Origin: Cristatella mucedo
Lineage: Eukaryota; Bryozoa; Phylactolaemata; Cristatellidae
Length of the DNA: 64,000 nucleotides
NCBI GenBank assembly: GCA_009760855.2
Contig: WPIO01000029.1
Span: forward strand, 4,308,001 to 4,372,000
Direction: 5' to 3'
Made by a program: the position numbers and the translations under genes. How positions within the stretch are numbered: the stretch's first letter is position 1; each line of letters opens with the position of its first letter. Positions 38,021-44,162 of this stretch are shown here, in pieces. The notes beneath the pieces were generated by a model. It was not told where the DNA came from. It saw nothing but the letters and a program-made list of their open reading frames with translations, and searched no databases.

Positions 38021-38433
38021 CATTGTAAATATATACCAAATACTATCTGTCACCTGAAAACAATATTCACGTCGGGCTGATTCAAATCTGAATTGCATTA
38101 TAATAGTCCTGTGTCAGTCGCATTTCCAGAAAAGCACGATCAAAAACAGCTACCAGCAGATAAGGAGATATGCGGTTTTTCTATTATTGATTATGTTGAT
38201 CCACGGTTCTTAATTTAGAGTTCATGGATTTACTGGATATCCTTAAATAAGATTCGTAATCCTTTACTTGCCGACAGAAACTTCACGATTGACGTCGTTC
38301 GCACCAAGAGAACCTAATTTACCCTAGGATGAGAAAAATATCATGGAAATTATGTAACTTGGATGGTATTGAATTAATCTTGGGTGCACAGAAGCAAGCC
38401 TACCACTATCTGGACCGCCTGAGATGGTGCTCT

Positions 38434-38728
38434 TGTAGTCTAAATTGTCGTCGCGAGCGGCACAGCACGCTAGCCAACGAGGAACACCACCAGTTTATTT
38501 CCTCCACACTCACAGCCGGCGGAAGCACCACTCCGCGCCGCAGACGTCGCCCGCTTCTGTCCTCTGCGGTACCGGAACGCTGCGCTCTCATTCGTTGGCG
38601 CCGTTGCCAACGCCTAGCTGCGCTCCGATTGCCTAACCGGTGGCCGGGAGGGCCACCCAGCCTAGTACTGGCAGATAACAACATTTAGGTGCTGTCACCG
38701 ACTGCGGTCTACATAAACAAAAACCACA
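38434..38728. repeat. Left LTR of the chimeric element
   Basis: 295 bp with TG...CA ends (TGTAGTC ... AACCACA). The only AATAAA signal lies on the minus strand (38494-38499), about 60 bp from the minus-strand end, which suggests the original transcription direction is minus, like pol. GCTCT immediately precedes it. Confidence 0.95.
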
Positions 38729-38788
38729 TGCCCGCCTGATCTGGAGGTCAATCTACGGCGCATTCTCCACTTTTTGGCAGCAAGAAGG

Positions 38789-38985
38789 CTAAACAGTAAG
38801 CACGTAGTCCTCATAGCGTGCCGGCGGTCTCAGCCCACATCTTGGTCGTAGGTGAGAGATAACCCGCTCATTCGTGACAATGTCATTGTTGGTGATTATA
38901 TCGTCTACGTATGAGTCAGTGCCTTCGCGCACCTGTGGGTCCATAGAAAGCACCTTATTTAACACGGCGATCATTATTTTAGGCG
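38789..38985 (-). pseudogene. Reverse-transcriptase scrap
   Basis: The minus-strand frame contains SYVDDIITNNDIVTNERVIS, an RT palm YxDD box typical of the pol type seen next to it. It is fused on its 5' side directly to gag zinc-knuckle sequence with protease missing, and ends at the LTR. Confidence 0.8.
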
Positions 38986-38989
38986 CTAT

Positions 38990-39145
38990 AACATGCGCTT
39001 CCCCTTACTAGTTTTTTGGCTGCGCATCGGTGCAACGCTCCGGACATATTGCTGCTAGGTGCGAGTCATCGCCGCATACAAAACACAGCCTTCGCTGCCT
39101 TTGCGACGAACGGCAGTCGCGACTTATGTGCCCTTCCTTTTATCG
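38990..39145 (-). pseudogene. gag zinc-knuckle scrap, inverted copy
   Basis: It is nearly identical to 41068-41223 in reverse orientation. It encodes the second knuckle CFVCGDDSHLAAICP and the end of the first one, with a Cys codon where the plus copy has a stop. On one side it is joined to integrase at a short shared run (AAAGGAAGGGC). Confidence 0.88.
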
Positions 39146-40110
39146 TTCGGTGGTTTCGCTCTACTATACCGTTTCCAGAGGAGCGGTAAGCACAGTGGTA
39201 TATTGGGTGTATCCCCCAACGATCGCAAAGCTGGCGAACAGCGTTCGATCGGAAAGTGGCGGAATTGTCCATTAAGAGCTGCCACGGCGGGCCTTTTTCT
39301 CTGAATATTTCATCCAAGTGTCGGACCACCGAGGTCTCGCTCTCGTCGGGTATACGCCGCCAGATGGAAAACCTGCTGGGGCCGCTATCGACAAGTGTCA
39401 GATATTTGACCCCGTTGAAGAAAGTAACATCAATAGCCAGGCGGCGCTAGTTGGAATCTACGTCCAAATGTCCATGGCTCCAAGACACTGGGGCTGGGTC
39501 CACAGACCGGCAACGCATGCACGATTTAACAACGCGTTCTGCTATCTCCCGCTATACGGAAATGCCGGGGAAGCAGAGTCTGGCCAGGTACAACGTACGG
39601 TCAACCCCTAGGTGATGCGAATCGTGGAACGCTCGCAGGTCTACTTCTTGCGCTGGGGTAGCAGCTGCGAGAATCGAGATTGGCTTAAGCCACGGCTGCG
39701 GTACTCGCGTTAAGTGGTCTGCTTTGTTGTCGGCCGAACGCACCAGTTGTATTCTCACCCGAAGGTCGTACTCCTTAATTACGTCGCGTACTATTGCTGT
39801 CTGCCGTCGAGCCAATGCCTCGTTTAGACCTCGCGTACGGATAGGCTTATCGCCTTCGACAATCGACCGAAGCCACGAGTGCACAGGGGCCGAGTCAGTA
39901 AACAATTCGATCTCTCGCAGGCCCCAGGCCAGGGCTAAATTTAGGCCCTTTATGACAGCCTCTAGTTCGGCCAGATTTATATGCGCCACGTCATCTGGCT
40001 TTCTAAGCCAAGAGGCATCCTCGACTGTCTGCCCTCCAATTCGCAAGCAGGCGCCTATCGCTAAGCTGCTTGCGTCGCACCATACCTTTCCTCTGGCATC
40101 GTCAAGCCTA
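39146..40110 (-). pseudogene. RNase H and integrase of the chimeric element
   Basis: From its 5' end on the minus strand: RNase H (VWCDASSLAIGACLRIGG, HINLAELEAVIKGL, LFTDSAPVHSWL, NKADHLTRVP), integrase HHCC (HHLGVDRTLYLAR ... CMRCRSVD), then the DDE core (RLAIDVTF, LMDNSATF, SGNGIVERNHR). In-frame TAG stops occur at 39552-39554 and 39447-39449. Otherwise the block is well preserved. RT upstream of RNase H is missing; eL34 sequence follows instead. Confidence 0.92.
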
Positions 40111-40114
40111 GATA

Positions 40115-40462
40115 ATGGCTCAACGTTTAACCTTCCGGCGTCGACTGTGCTACAATACCAACTCGGCGGCACGAAAAGTGTCGAAGACCCCAGGCGGCCG
40201 TCTAGTTTACTTGTATAAAAAGAAAGCGGGAAGTGTTCCAAAATTCGGAGACTGCAAAGTGCTGCTGCACGGAATCAAGGCTGCTCGTCCTAAGCAACTT
40301 ATGTCAATGTCAAAGCGGCTGAAGACAGTCACTCGGACATACGGTGGTTCTCAGTGCCACACCTGCGTTAGGACAAGGATAATTCGTGCTTTCCTCATTG
40401 AAGAACAGAAAATCGTTGTCCGAGTGCTGAAGGCTCAGCAGGCTGCTGAAGCTAAGAAGTGA
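40115..40462 (+). CDS. RPL34: Ribosomal protein eL34, intronless retrocopy inside the LTR element
   Basis: An uninterrupted 115-residue frame begins [17 protein letters not shown] and contains [44 protein letters not shown] and [18 protein letters not shown], the full length and order of eL34 of the large ribosomal subunit. It has no introns. It is followed after 5 bp by an AATAAA signal (40468-40473), as in a short ribosomal-protein mRNA. The first of the four zinc-binding cysteines is Phe (VPKFGDC where CGDC or CGQC is usual), so function is doubtful. No poly(A) tract separates it from the gag start 30 bp downstream. It looks like an mRNA-derived insert acquired by the retroelement. Confidence 0.93.
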
Positions 40463-40491
40463 GCGTAAATAAACAAGCTACTTCGGCCGTA

Positions 40492-41210
40492 ATGGAGAAC
40501 GTAAAGTTCAGCCACATCGTCACTCAATTCAATGGCAGCGGAGACTTTGCGGGCTGGGCTGAAAAGTTTGATCTGGTGGCAGAGATTCAAGGTATTGTCG
40601 CTGCCGACCGCCACAAATTCCTGCCCCTTTTTCTAACCGGTGGAGCGTTCGCCGTGTACCAAAGCATCGATGGACAGGCGAAGAAAGACTATACCATCGT
40701 AAAAGAGGCTCTTCTGGCTGCATTTTCGGCGGAAAAATTTAAAGCTTATGAGGAGCTCACAACACGGCGGCTCCAAGCTGGGGAACCAGTGGACGTATAG
40801 GCATTGATTTTGGCCCGGCTGGCCGGATTGGTGAGTGCTGCTGCGAAGGATGACTTGGTAAGATTCGCTTTCGTCACCGGGCTCCCGGAGGACATCCGAA
40901 AGCAGCCACGCGCGGCGTGTGCGCTCAAAAAGATGGCGATGTCTGAGGTCGTTGAGAAGGCTCGAGCGCTTATGAGTTGCCAGGAGCCGAGCTACGCGGC
41001 CGCTGCTGAGGCACTAGGAGCTAGAGGCTCTCGCCCGACTCCACAGAAGCGTTTTTGTTTCTTCTGCAAAAAGGAAGGGCACATAAGTCGCGACTGACGT
41101 TCGTCACAAAGGCAGCGAAGGCTGTGTTTTGTATGCGGCGATGACTCGCACCTAGCAGCAATATGTCCGGAGCGTCGCACCGATGCGCAGCCAAAAAACG
41201 AGTAAGGGGA
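40492..41210 (+). pseudogene. gag with two zinc knuckles
   Basis: A gag-like frame starts MENVKFSHIVTQFNGSGDF and runs to two CCHC knuckles: CFFCKKEGHISRD followed by a stop where the Cys should be, and CFVCGDDSHLAAICP. In-frame stops lie at 40798-40800 (TAG) and 41095-41097 (TGA). The gag start follows the eL34 3' untranslated sequence directly. Confidence 0.88.
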
Positions 41211-41264
41211 AGCGCATGTTATACCACCAGCGAATTCCCCTGCTTGTCAACTCGACTGCCAACA

Positions 41265-41396
41265 ATGAATTTTCTCAACGGTGGTCGTATTATGAAGGCG
41301 CTTCTTGATACTGGCTGCTCTCGGTCGATTGTGACTGAATCTTCGGTACTGCGTGCCACCTCGGCGCAGTCTTATTCGGTTAACGAGCCGAAATAG
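41265..41396 (+). pseudogene. Aspartic protease scrap
   Basis: The frame contains ALLDTGCSRSIVTE, the DTG active site of a retropepsin, and breaks off at the right LTR. Confidence 0.8.
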
Positions 41397-41398
41397 CT

Positions 41399-41693
41399 TG
41401 TAGTCTAAATTGTCGTCGCTAGCGGCACAGCACGCTAGCCAACGAGGAACACCACCAGTTTATTTCCTCCACACTCACAGCCGGCGGAAGCACCACTCCG
41501 CGCCGCAGACGTCGCCCGCTTCTGTCCTCTGCGGTACCGGAACGCTGCGCTCTCATTCGTTGGCGCCGTTGCCAACGCCTAGCTGCGCTCCGATTGCCTA
41601 ACCGGTGGCCGGGAGGGCCACCCAGCCTAGTACTGGCAGATAACAACATTTAGGTGCTGTCACCGACTGCGGTCTACATAAACAAAAACCACA
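41399..41693. repeat. Right LTR of the chimeric element
   Basis: It is the same 295 bp as the left LTR with one substitution noticed (G/T, gtcgcgagc against gtcgctagc), and is followed by GCTCT. Confidence 0.95.
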
Positions 41694-41779
41694 GCTCTAT
41701 TTCCGTTTTCTCATTACATTTTTTCCAAGTGCATTGGCTCGAATCAAGGCATTTCACCTTGGTACCATTTACAGACCAA

Positions 41780-44162
41780 TAATCTCATTATCGATAGTTA
41801 CGGCCTATGGTTTACCGCAGACATTAACCTAGGCAAGTCTACTAAACGAAAGCTTGAAAAAGCATACAAAAGATCCGGACTAACTGTCCATCGACAGGCA
41901 TATGAAGACTGCTGTAGGTCGTATCAATCGATCCTAGCAAAGGCTAAGTCTAGTTTTTATAAAAACATTGTTGAATCACAGATGCACACTCCAAAAATGC
42001 TGATGTCGACAATAAACCATCTCCTCAACCGTTCCCAGGTTAGCTCCTTACCTATTCTCCTTCCAGTCCAAAGGTGCCCTCTGGTTCCCATTGTCTTTCC
42101 AGCTTATACTGCTAATGGCATGTTTACCGAGCACCAGCATCTTCTCTCTAGCAAGCATCTGCTCATTGGCAGCAGCAGCTGCAGCACAGGGGTGAGTGAA
42201 AGAGGCAGTAACACGAACTCGTGTCCCTTCTCTCGATTCTTTGTGCAGAAGATAGACAAGATCAGGGAATCCATCCCTGCGATGACAACCTCCTCACTAG
42301 AATGCTGTTCCTCGGTTCCTGGCTGTGCCTCAATTTCTGCATTTAAGCAGGTCACTAGTGATCTAGTCCTAAAGTTCGTATCTCAATCAAAGAAGACAAC
42401 AAGTTCTCTGGACCCTATTCCCACTGTCCTGCTCCTACGTTGCATTGATCTGCTGCTGCTATGCATAACTAACATAATTAATATGTCATTAGCCTCAGGT
42501 CATGTCTTAGCACCTTTCAAAAAAGCTGTAGTCGGGCCACTTCTCAAGAAAGCTACACTTGACCAAGAGAACTTGTGCAACTACCGCCCAGTTTCCCTTC
42601 TACCGTTCCTATCAAAGACACTCGAACGGGTCGTGGCGGACCAGCTGAACTCGTATATCGGAACCTCACACCTTGCTAGTAAGTTCCAGTCTGGCTTTAG
42701 AGCTAATCACTCCACAGAGTCAGCATTGCTTCGGGTATACAACAACCTACTTAGGAATGCAGACATAGGTAGAGTGTCTCTGCTTGTTTTGCTTGATCTT
42801 TCGGCAGCTTTTGATACCATCAATCACAAAAATCTTCTAGAGCGCCTCTCATCTCGCCTGGGCATCACTGGCACTGCTGTGCAGTGGTTCAGGTTCTATC
42901 TCAGTGGGAGTCTTCAGAGTATTGACGTGAACAGACAAAGATCATCTGAAGTACCTCTGAAATATGGAGTACCTCAGGGCTCAGTGCTAGGTCCGGTTCT
43001 TTTCACGGTTTATACTCTGCCTCTTACTGATGTGACTGCCAAGCACGATCTAGGCTTTCACTTCTATGCGGATGACACTCAGTTGTACCTTTGCTTTGAT
43101 CCCTCCCAGCCTTCGAGCACCTCAAATTCTCTCAACTCACTAGCTGCATGCATTGATGACATCCACACATGGATAGCAGCAAATTTTCTAAAATTTAACG
43201 ATGATAAAACTAACTTACTAGTTATGGGCAAACCCAGTGTGATCCAGAGATTGGAAAGGCTGACTCTCAAAATTGGCTCTGCCAGTATATCTCCAGTTGA
43301 ATCAGCTCGAAATCTAGGTGTCATATTCCAAAGCGACCTCTCGTTAGACGACCATATCAGCTCCACAGTCAAATCAGCCTATTTTCAGCTTCATAACATT
43401 GCTAAAATTAGGGCTTGTTTAGATAAGTATACCACGTCCAAGTTGGTCCATGCATTCGTGACATCTCGTCTCGACTTCTGCAACTCACTGCTTACTGGCC
43501 TACCAGCATGTGCGATCAGGCGATTGCAGCTGGTGCAAAACTTTGTAGCTAGGCTTGTCTGTCGTGAGCGTCGCAGTTGCCACATTACTCCACTTCTCGC
43601 CGACCTGCACTGGCTACCAGTCAAGCAACGGATTGACTTCAAGGTTTTGTCGCTCACTTTTAGGTCCCTTCATTCTATGGCTCCAGCCTATCTGTCAGAT
43701 ATACTACCCCATCAGGCCAAGCATCGTACCACCCGCTTTTCGGAATCCAACAGTCTAGAAATACCTCATACAAACCTTAAATCCTTTGGAGACCGTGCAT
43801 TTAGTTCATATGCTCCCAAAGCCTGGAACTCCCTCCCGACCTGCGTCAGAACATCCCCTGACCTGACCACATTTAAAAGGAACCTAAAAACACACCTATT
43901 TAGGACGGCATTTAGTGGGTCCCCGTGATTCGTCCTTGATGTGCTTATGCGTGCTGACACTGCATGCTGCCACTAACCACATTTGCATGCTGACCCTGTG
44001 CATGTCACCCCTAACCATATTATTCATTTCGTTTGTTTTTCAAGCATGATTTTACTTACCATTCAATTGCATTTCACTTTACAGCAAATGTAAAGCGCCT
44101 AGAGAGAGATTAAGTTCTCTGAGGGCGCTTTATCAAGTGAATTATTATTATTATTATTACTG
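41780..44162 (+). mobile_element. L2-A LINE, best-preserved copy
   Basis: It runs from the region before RT to a clean (ATT)n tail at 44143-44162. The long frame 41982-43928 is uninterrupted, which makes this the youngest L2-A copy with RT in the window. The 5' end (endonuclease) is missing, the usual 5' truncation. Confidence 0.96.
41982..43928 (+). CDS. L2-A reverse transcriptase, 5'-truncated ORF2
   Basis: 648 residues are open. RT blocks in order: LLKKATLDQENLCNYRPVSL, FQSGFRANHSTESALLRV, LLDLSAAFDTINHKNLLERL, GVPQGSVLGPVLF and the catalytic FYADDTQLYLCF, then the L2/CR1-group C-terminal region (SRLDFCNSLLTGLPAC, HITPLLADLHWLPVKQRIDF, AFSSYAPKAWNSLPTC). The endonuclease domain is absent. 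Near residues 25-85 it carries an extra in-frame stretch not seen in other copies (42053-42235). It may be translatable but cannot retrotranspose alone. Confidence 0.93.
   Translation: MHTPKMLMSTINHLLNRSQVSSLPILLPVQRCPLVPIVFPAYTANGMFTEHQHLLSSKHLLIGSSSCSTGVSERGSNTNSCPFSRFFVQKIDKIRESIPAMTTSSLECCSSVPGCASISAFKQVTSDLVLKFVSQSKKTTSSLDPIPTVLLLRCIDLLLLCITNIINMSLASGHVLAPFKKAVVGPLLKKATLDQENLCNYRPVSLLPFLSKTLERVVADQLNSYIGTSHLASKFQSGFRANHSTESALLRVYNNLLRNADIGRVSLLVLLDLSAAFDTINHKNLLERLSSRLGITGTAVQWFRFYLSGSLQSIDVNRQRSSEVPLKYGVPQGSVLGPVLFTVYTLPLTDVTAKHDLGFHFYADDTQLYLCFDPSQPSSTSNSLNSLAACIDDIHTWIAANFLKFNDDKTNLLVMGKPSVIQRLERLTLKIGSASISPVESARNLGVIFQSDLSLDDHISSTVKSAYFQLHNIAKIRACLDKYTTSKLVHAFVTSRLDFCNSLLTGLPACAIRRLQLVQNFVARLVCRERRSCHITPLLADLHWLPVKQRIDFKVLSLTFRSLHSMAPAYLSDILPHQAKHRTTRFSESNSLEIPHTNLKSFGDRAFSSYAPKAWNSLPTCVRTSPDLTTFKRNLKTHLFRTAFSGSP

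Follow-up and report, generated by a model that had tools for sequence, protein, structure and literature searches.

An LTR retrotransposon insertion in the bryozoan Cristatella mucedo carrying a near-complete eL34 mRNA copy, very probably captured by template switching

How can a ribosomal protein gene without introns come to lie, complete, between the two long terminal repeats (LTRs) of a young retrotransposon? The question is raised by an element at positions 38434-41693 of a 64,000-nt stretch of the Cristatella mucedo genome (contig WPIO01000029.1, positions 4,308,001 to 4,372,000; hereafter the window), in which a 115-codon frame for ribosomal protein eL34 is accompanied, between the LTRs, by gag and pol fragments on opposite strands. 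The original prediction, made from the letters of the window, had proposed that host mRNA was picked up by template switching during reverse transcription, and the present analysis supports this: the copy corresponds to the spliced form of its parent, it has no poly(A), its joints share sequence with the element and the whole was integrated as one unit. We consider it very probable that eL34 mRNA was captured in this way within an LTR-element particle; a single jump-rich round of reverse transcription fits best and is favoured with less assurance, and the exact series of jumps described below is offered as a tentative path. The assembly searched comprises 572 Mb, and the window lies on a contig of 4.67 Mb. 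Queries with the LTR, gag and eL34 yielded 667, 111 and 4 candidates respectively, of which 40, 40 and 4 were scored, and the pol and gag pieces were placed in two ways, with 24 related proteins in tblastn searches and by aligning them with three full-length copies of the element from the same genome (L067, L068 and L069, ~4.2 kb each).

The two LTRs (38434-38728 and 41399-41693, 295 bp each) end in TG...CA, differ at one of 295 positions (LTR position 22 in the plus-strand reading) and are bracketed by a perfect 5-bp target duplication, GCTCT, at 38429-38433 and 41694-41698; the LTR pair with its one difference and the duplication outside it had both been read correctly in the original prediction. 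Because near-identical LTRs and a single target duplication bracket the chimera, it integrated as one unit, as had been claimed. The combination of one target duplication with highly similar outer LTRs is a published sign of a single reverse-transcription and integration event (PMC1950507). The LTRs carry AATAAA on the minus strand only (LTR position 229), and a polypurine tract (PPT)-like sequence, AGGCGGGCA, adjoins the LTR at 38729 beside the pol C-terminus, in the same layout as in the three full-length copies; it presumably works as a PPT. By both features the minus strand is the LTR sense strand, and therefore pol runs forward whereas eL34, gag and protease are inverted. The earlier placement of eL34 between gag and pol pieces on opposite strands is thus retained, and its orientation (inverted pol, forward gag) has to be reversed. 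A gag piece of 160 nt is present twice, the second copy lying inside the pol part; two in-frame stop codons fall within the gag frame before the point where it would naturally end, and another two within the integrase part. The target duplications and the parts of the chimera, from the 5' to the 3' LTR, are as follows.

38429..38433, no strand: target-site duplication GCTCT, left (sequence)
41694..41698, no strand: target-site duplication GCTCT, right (sequence)
41399..41693, minus: 5' LTR (LTR comparison; AATAAA on the minus strand only)
41387..41398, minus: leader of 12 nt, AGCTATTTCGGC, a putative primer-binding site (complementary at every position to tRNA-Phe nt 1-12)
40478..41389, plus: inverted block of leader, gag (ATG at 40492) and beginning of protease, opposite in sense to the LTR (96.3-96.6% identical to L067-L069; P0130 and P0129 by tblastn)
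40085..40477, plus: processed eL34 mRNA copy with spliced 5' untranslated region (5'UTR, two exons), coding sequence 40115-40462 and 3'UTR to just past AATAAA (393 nt, 6 differences from the spliced parent)
39129..40096, minus: RNase H and integrase part of pol, sense (96.6-97.6% identical to L067-L069; tblastn)
38982..39141, minus: second gag zinc-knuckle copy, sense (96% inverted repeat; alignment to L067-L069)
38845..38988, minus: 144-nt reverse transcriptase (RT) fragment around YVDD, sense (alignment to L067-L069; tblastn)
38729..38854, minus: pol C-terminus, 3' untranslated part and PPT-like tract (alignment to the full-length copies)
38434..38728, minus: 3' LTR (LTR comparison)

The frame at 40115-40462 (115 codons and a stop) matches Pfam Ribosomal_L34e (E 3.3e-38) and is followed by its own AATAAA at 40468-40473, in agreement with the full intronless frame first reported; among the 120 of 605 protein matches listed, the best belong to nemerteans, molluscs and brachiopods. 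All four candidates of the eL34 query resolve into the copy and one gene on another contig (C110:1493377-1495486), which is matched by four exon pieces. This gene comprises five exons, the first being a 22-nt 5'UTR exon with a terminal oligopyrimidine (TOP)-like CCTTTCC start, and alignment of the insert to it, as had been suggested, identifies the copy as its spliced form: positions 40085-40477 match the spliced parental mRNA over 393 nt, including the join of the 5'UTR exon, with six differences, and reach from the putative cap site to just past AATAAA, similarity to the parent ending 4 nt beyond that signal. The alternative named at the outset, a resident single-exon eL34 gene at this locus, is excluded by the five-exon parent on C110, and neither a second processed eL34 copy nor a further LTR-eL34 copy, for which a search had been proposed, was found among the four candidates. 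Five of the six differences are synonymous (P 0.007 for at least five of six, given a neutral synonymous share of 0.27) and four of these fall within 22 nt (40183-40204), possibly a diverged parental allele; the sixth replaces Cys44 by Phe. Most of the differences would probably reflect another allele of the parent and not decay. Cys44, which we take to be a zinc ligand, is nearly invariant (≥90%) in an alignment of the copy and 37 of the 120 listed relatives. A reading of the insert as an old copy, considered because of the loss of Cys44 and the distance from known eL34 proteins, was rejected, since the parent differs at one residue only. The copy shows what is expected of a retrocopy made by an LTR element (a spliced form beside an intron-bearing parent, element sequence on both sides with short shared joints, integration as one unit), whereas the poly(A) tail and target duplication of its own that mark a processed pseudogene of the long interspersed nuclear element (LINE) type are absent: no poly(A) lies at 40477/40478, and element sequence adjoins both ends immediately.

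Read along the LTR sense strand, the chimera contains six junctions (J1 to J6), each with 1-8 nt of exact shared sequence; the original prediction of a captured eL34 stands, and its two joints become six. At J1 the LTR and 12-nt leader pass into antisense protease with 3 nt shared. J2 joins the inverted gag leader to the eL34 3'UTR through the five shared nucleotides ACAAG, of which three close U5 and two open the leader; element similarity of the inverted block begins at 40473, its first 5 nt being common to eL34 and the element. J3 sets the eL34 5' end, GCCAGAGGAAAGG, against the pol sequence GCCAGCGGACAGG, with 11 of 13 positions matching and 3 nt exact at the joint. The last three junctions lead from integrase to zinc knuckle (J4, 8 nt exact), from zinc knuckle to RT (J5, 7 nt exact) and from RT to the pol C-terminus (J6, 1 nt exact within an imperfect 6/7). 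J2 and J3 involve eL34, of which the four-candidate search yielded no second processed copy. A 121-nt query across J1 was spanned by the window only (40 rows, 40 of 243 candidates scored), as was a 220-nt query across J5 and J6 (41 rows, 40 of 200 candidates scored), the other 40 rows of which end at or near the joints.

From this arrangement we infer the packaging, the growing strand, the order of the jumps, the single round and the role of the primer end. A particle of a Ty3/Gypsy-order element would have packaged eL34 mRNA along with element RNA, and the growing DNA strand would have switched templates at short shared sequences. Plus-strand strong-stop DNA (the LTR and a 12-nt primer copy) may have run to the primer end and been re-primed in the protease region of element RNA (J1), after which protease, gag and leader would have been copied antisense up to the border of U5 and the primer site. 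A jump at ACAAG (J2) would then have led into the eL34 3'UTR, the mRNA would have been copied to about its cap, and a jump at the 11/13 match (J3) would have placed the strand on minus-strand pol DNA, where RNase H and integrase would be copied and jumps made to the zinc knuckle (J4), RT (J5) and the pol C-terminus (J6), until synthesis was finished through the PPT and the second LTR and integrase inserted the product. Such a path requires the template to change from DNA to RNA once (J1) and from RNA to minus-strand DNA once (J3). J2 then falls on the U5/primer-site border, from which the template RNA would be expected to have been removed. PMC5371799 describes hydrolysis of the R and U5 template by RNase H, and the published LTR-retrocopy model has co-packaged mRNA joined at short similarities (PMC5408686).

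Several points weigh against this account. The two zinc-knuckle copies differ at four sites between the joints, and the pieces of the chimera are 92-99% identical to L067-L069 (1-8% different) with no one best donor; this implies more than one donor molecule, or rounds before the last. The overlap at J6 is thin, and although the sum of the exact overlaps (27 nt) speaks for template switching, with P ~3e-9 under a model of independent random joints, that model was picked after the data were seen. Both junction-spanning queries were scored in part, and the absence of J4 from 67 other loci is a weak test, six hits reaching its integrase side. The cap site of the parental mRNA is placed by the TOP-like start, and the chimera is known from assembled sequence alone, which leaves misassembly a formal alternative. 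The rival that survives best would have template switching act on an already rearranged donor (knuckle duplication, RT deletion, perhaps inversion), the last round having added only eL34. The four differing sites, as from different molecules or rounds, and the restricted comparison of J4 suit it; however, J1, J5 and J6 occur only here among the scored hits, and J1, J4, J5 and J6 are found in none of the 67 other loci (not all of which cover those regions), and we hold such a donor to be unlikely.

The other rivals fare worse. A LINE-made eL34 pseudogene that landed in, or recombined into, the LTR element could draw on the LINE reverse-transcriptase frames in the window, but the copy has neither a poly(A) tail nor a target duplication around it, its ends share 5 nt (J2) and 11 of 13 nt (J3) with the element, and its 3' joint falls in the very 5 nt that span the U5/primer-site border, all of which makes this origin highly improbable. 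An assembly artefact joining eL34 cDNA-like sequence to retrotransposon reads is more improbable still: the assembly yielded neither an empty nor an alternative allele, the joined-flank search for a vacant GCTCT site, which the original prediction had proposed to look for in other individuals, having returned none (40 of 956 candidates scored), but the contig extends over 4.67 Mb, the left flank and the first ~100 nt of the right flank have no second match in that search, and the target duplication is perfect and the LTRs near-identical. That the copy is a functional retrogene, expressed and kept by selection, is scarcely to be believed in spite of its open frame and synonymous excess, since the insertion is young, the excess may be read at least as well as parental allelic variation, the one replacement removes a conserved Cys, and the copy is antisense to the LTR and without parental promoter sequence.

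As to its fate, the eL34 insert is most probably an inert pseudogene: it lies opposite in sense to the transcript of the LTR, no parental promoter sequence precedes the inferred mRNA start with which it begins, and the conserved Cys has been replaced; its frame is open because the insertion is young. The product was likely mobilised in trans, and with a putative primer site and a PPT the chimera may in principle still be so.

The putative primer site requires separate discussion. The 12 nt that follow the 5' LTR, AGCTATTTCGGC, complement nt 1-12 of tRNA-Phe exactly, at its 5' and not its 3' end, and do not start with TGG. The full-length copies have a 16-nt leader, of which the chimera keeps the first 12 nt, and for this reason the absence of any primer site after the 5' LTR was rejected. 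Priming by the element's own LTR was rejected as well, the complement of the site being absent from the LTR. The first 26 nt of the tRNA occur at 11 genomic sites (10 exact), and two sites that were examined are called tRNA-Phe(GAA). Among 29 gag-bearing copies the complement is matched at 12 of 12 positions in 10, 11 of 12 in 15, 10 of 12 in 3 and 9 of 12 in 1. A chance 12-nt match to the 5' end of one of ~50 tRNAs has a probability of ~3e-6, a post hoc figure for which only tRNA-Phe was compared. A pattern search found 92 leader sites in the genome; the pattern fixes the first 12 nt, and only divergence beyond nt 12 is informative. Of 20 sites chosen outside the gag rows, 5 run into the gag start and 15 into other sequence directly past nt 12, which is exactly where J1 breaks. 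Leader position 6 is T in 15 of the 29 copies and C in 14, and C is unpaired with the tRNA, a point against a tRNA-Phe primer. The chimera has T in its 5' leader and C in the inverted one, as expected if the former was copied from the tRNA and the latter from element RNA, although a T-type donor would explain it equally well. It is conceivable, if somewhat doubtful, that the family uses as primer the first 12 nt of tRNA-Phe, released by a cut behind nt 12, J1 being a run-off and re-priming scar that opens the chain of jumps. In the self-priming of Tf1 the annealed RNA is cleaved, and by analogy cleavage of annealed RNA might be one source of a 3' end after nt 12. No primer site matching a tRNA 5' end was found in the literature searched, although one may be in print.

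The domain order supports derivation of the chimera from an LTR retrotransposon of Ty3/Gypsy order. Relatives of its pol among public proteins are arranged as protease, RT, RNase H and integrase, the complete order from gag to integrase is seen in P0130, and the pieces of the chimera map onto relatives and onto L067-L069 so ordered. LTRs of the TG...CA type, a 5-bp target duplication and a PPT beside the 3' LTR agree with this assignment; a primer site complementary to a tRNA 3' end is missing. Since one full-length copy (L067, target duplication GCAGC) has no LTR differences, the family was recently active; L069 is flanked by the target duplication CCGAT, and other LTRs among the 40 scored candidates are at most 98% identical to those of the chimera. 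Hypermutation was considered and rejected, as 12 private changes in 898 nt of gag lie inside the range of 29 other copies (4-25) and have a mixed spectrum. No relatives of pol or eL34 were found among viral contigs, and an Rfam scan at gathering scores and a tRNA scan of the window gave no matches.

Some further observations concern the family and the window. Two short elements of 1.7-1.8 kb (L070, C122:920119-922391; L071, C8:1396377-1398778) carry the chimera's LTRs around one diverged gag-like frame with an Ala/Val-rich tail, followed by the pol C-terminus and LTR; judged by eye, the frame has no zinc knuckle, and from this layout they may be gag-only non-autonomous companions. No other captured host gene could be named in L070, L071 or L106, whose interiors are gag-like, or in L107, which weakly matches one of these. 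Facing pairs of LTR-leader ends in opposite orientation, ~0.3-0.45 kb apart, occur at C199:4410387-4410835 and C442:8071968-8072268 and may represent nesting or aberrant products with inverted LTRs. The heptamer A AAA AAC lies at ~41190-41206, just ahead of the putative gag stop, and protease is read in the -1 frame; this is presumably a frameshift motif, and -1 frameshifting in the family is likely. Several LINE-like reverse-transcriptase frames are located at 41982-43928 and elsewhere in the window, one of them, of 648 codons, matching RVT_1.

LTR-mediated retroposition of host mRNA has reportedly been studied in animals by Tan et al. (as referenced in PMC8232201), and the present insertion appears to be a particularly complete instance of this known process in which the individual jumps are unusually clear. 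It agrees with LTR-mediated retroposition as set out in PMC5408686 in its spliced mRNA, lack of poly(A), LTR-element flanks, short shared joints, LTRs and target duplication; unlike the retrocopies described there, in which frequently only a limited part of the mRNA is copied, it contains a near-complete mRNA, two polarity changes and extra jumps within element sequence. Maize Bs1 is likewise an LTR element with pieces of processed host genes, but it holds partial segments of three genes (PMC13317346), whereas one near-complete mRNA is present here, antisense and in a single instance. The single target duplication and highly similar outer LTRs are shared with template-switch insertions of Triticeae, although the latter are fusions of two elements that contain a third, internal LTR (PMC1950507) and the present one combines host mRNA with inverted blocks. 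Copia half-tRNA priming and the tRNA-independent priming of Tf1 also depart from the usual tRNA 3' end (PMC5371799); here, by contrast, 12 nt complementary to the very 5' end of tRNA-Phe are found. Hallmarks of LTR capture are said to degrade quickly (PMC4838847). For this insertion the parent gene and full-length sisters are available together with the LTR pair, its target duplication and every one of the six joints, and the course taken by the reverse transcriptase can be followed base by base, including the points at which it came to the inferred mRNA cap and left the primer site. A side result for the family is a putative primer site of an unusual kind, its 12 nt complementing tRNA-Phe at the 5' end, which would be directly testable in particle RNA.

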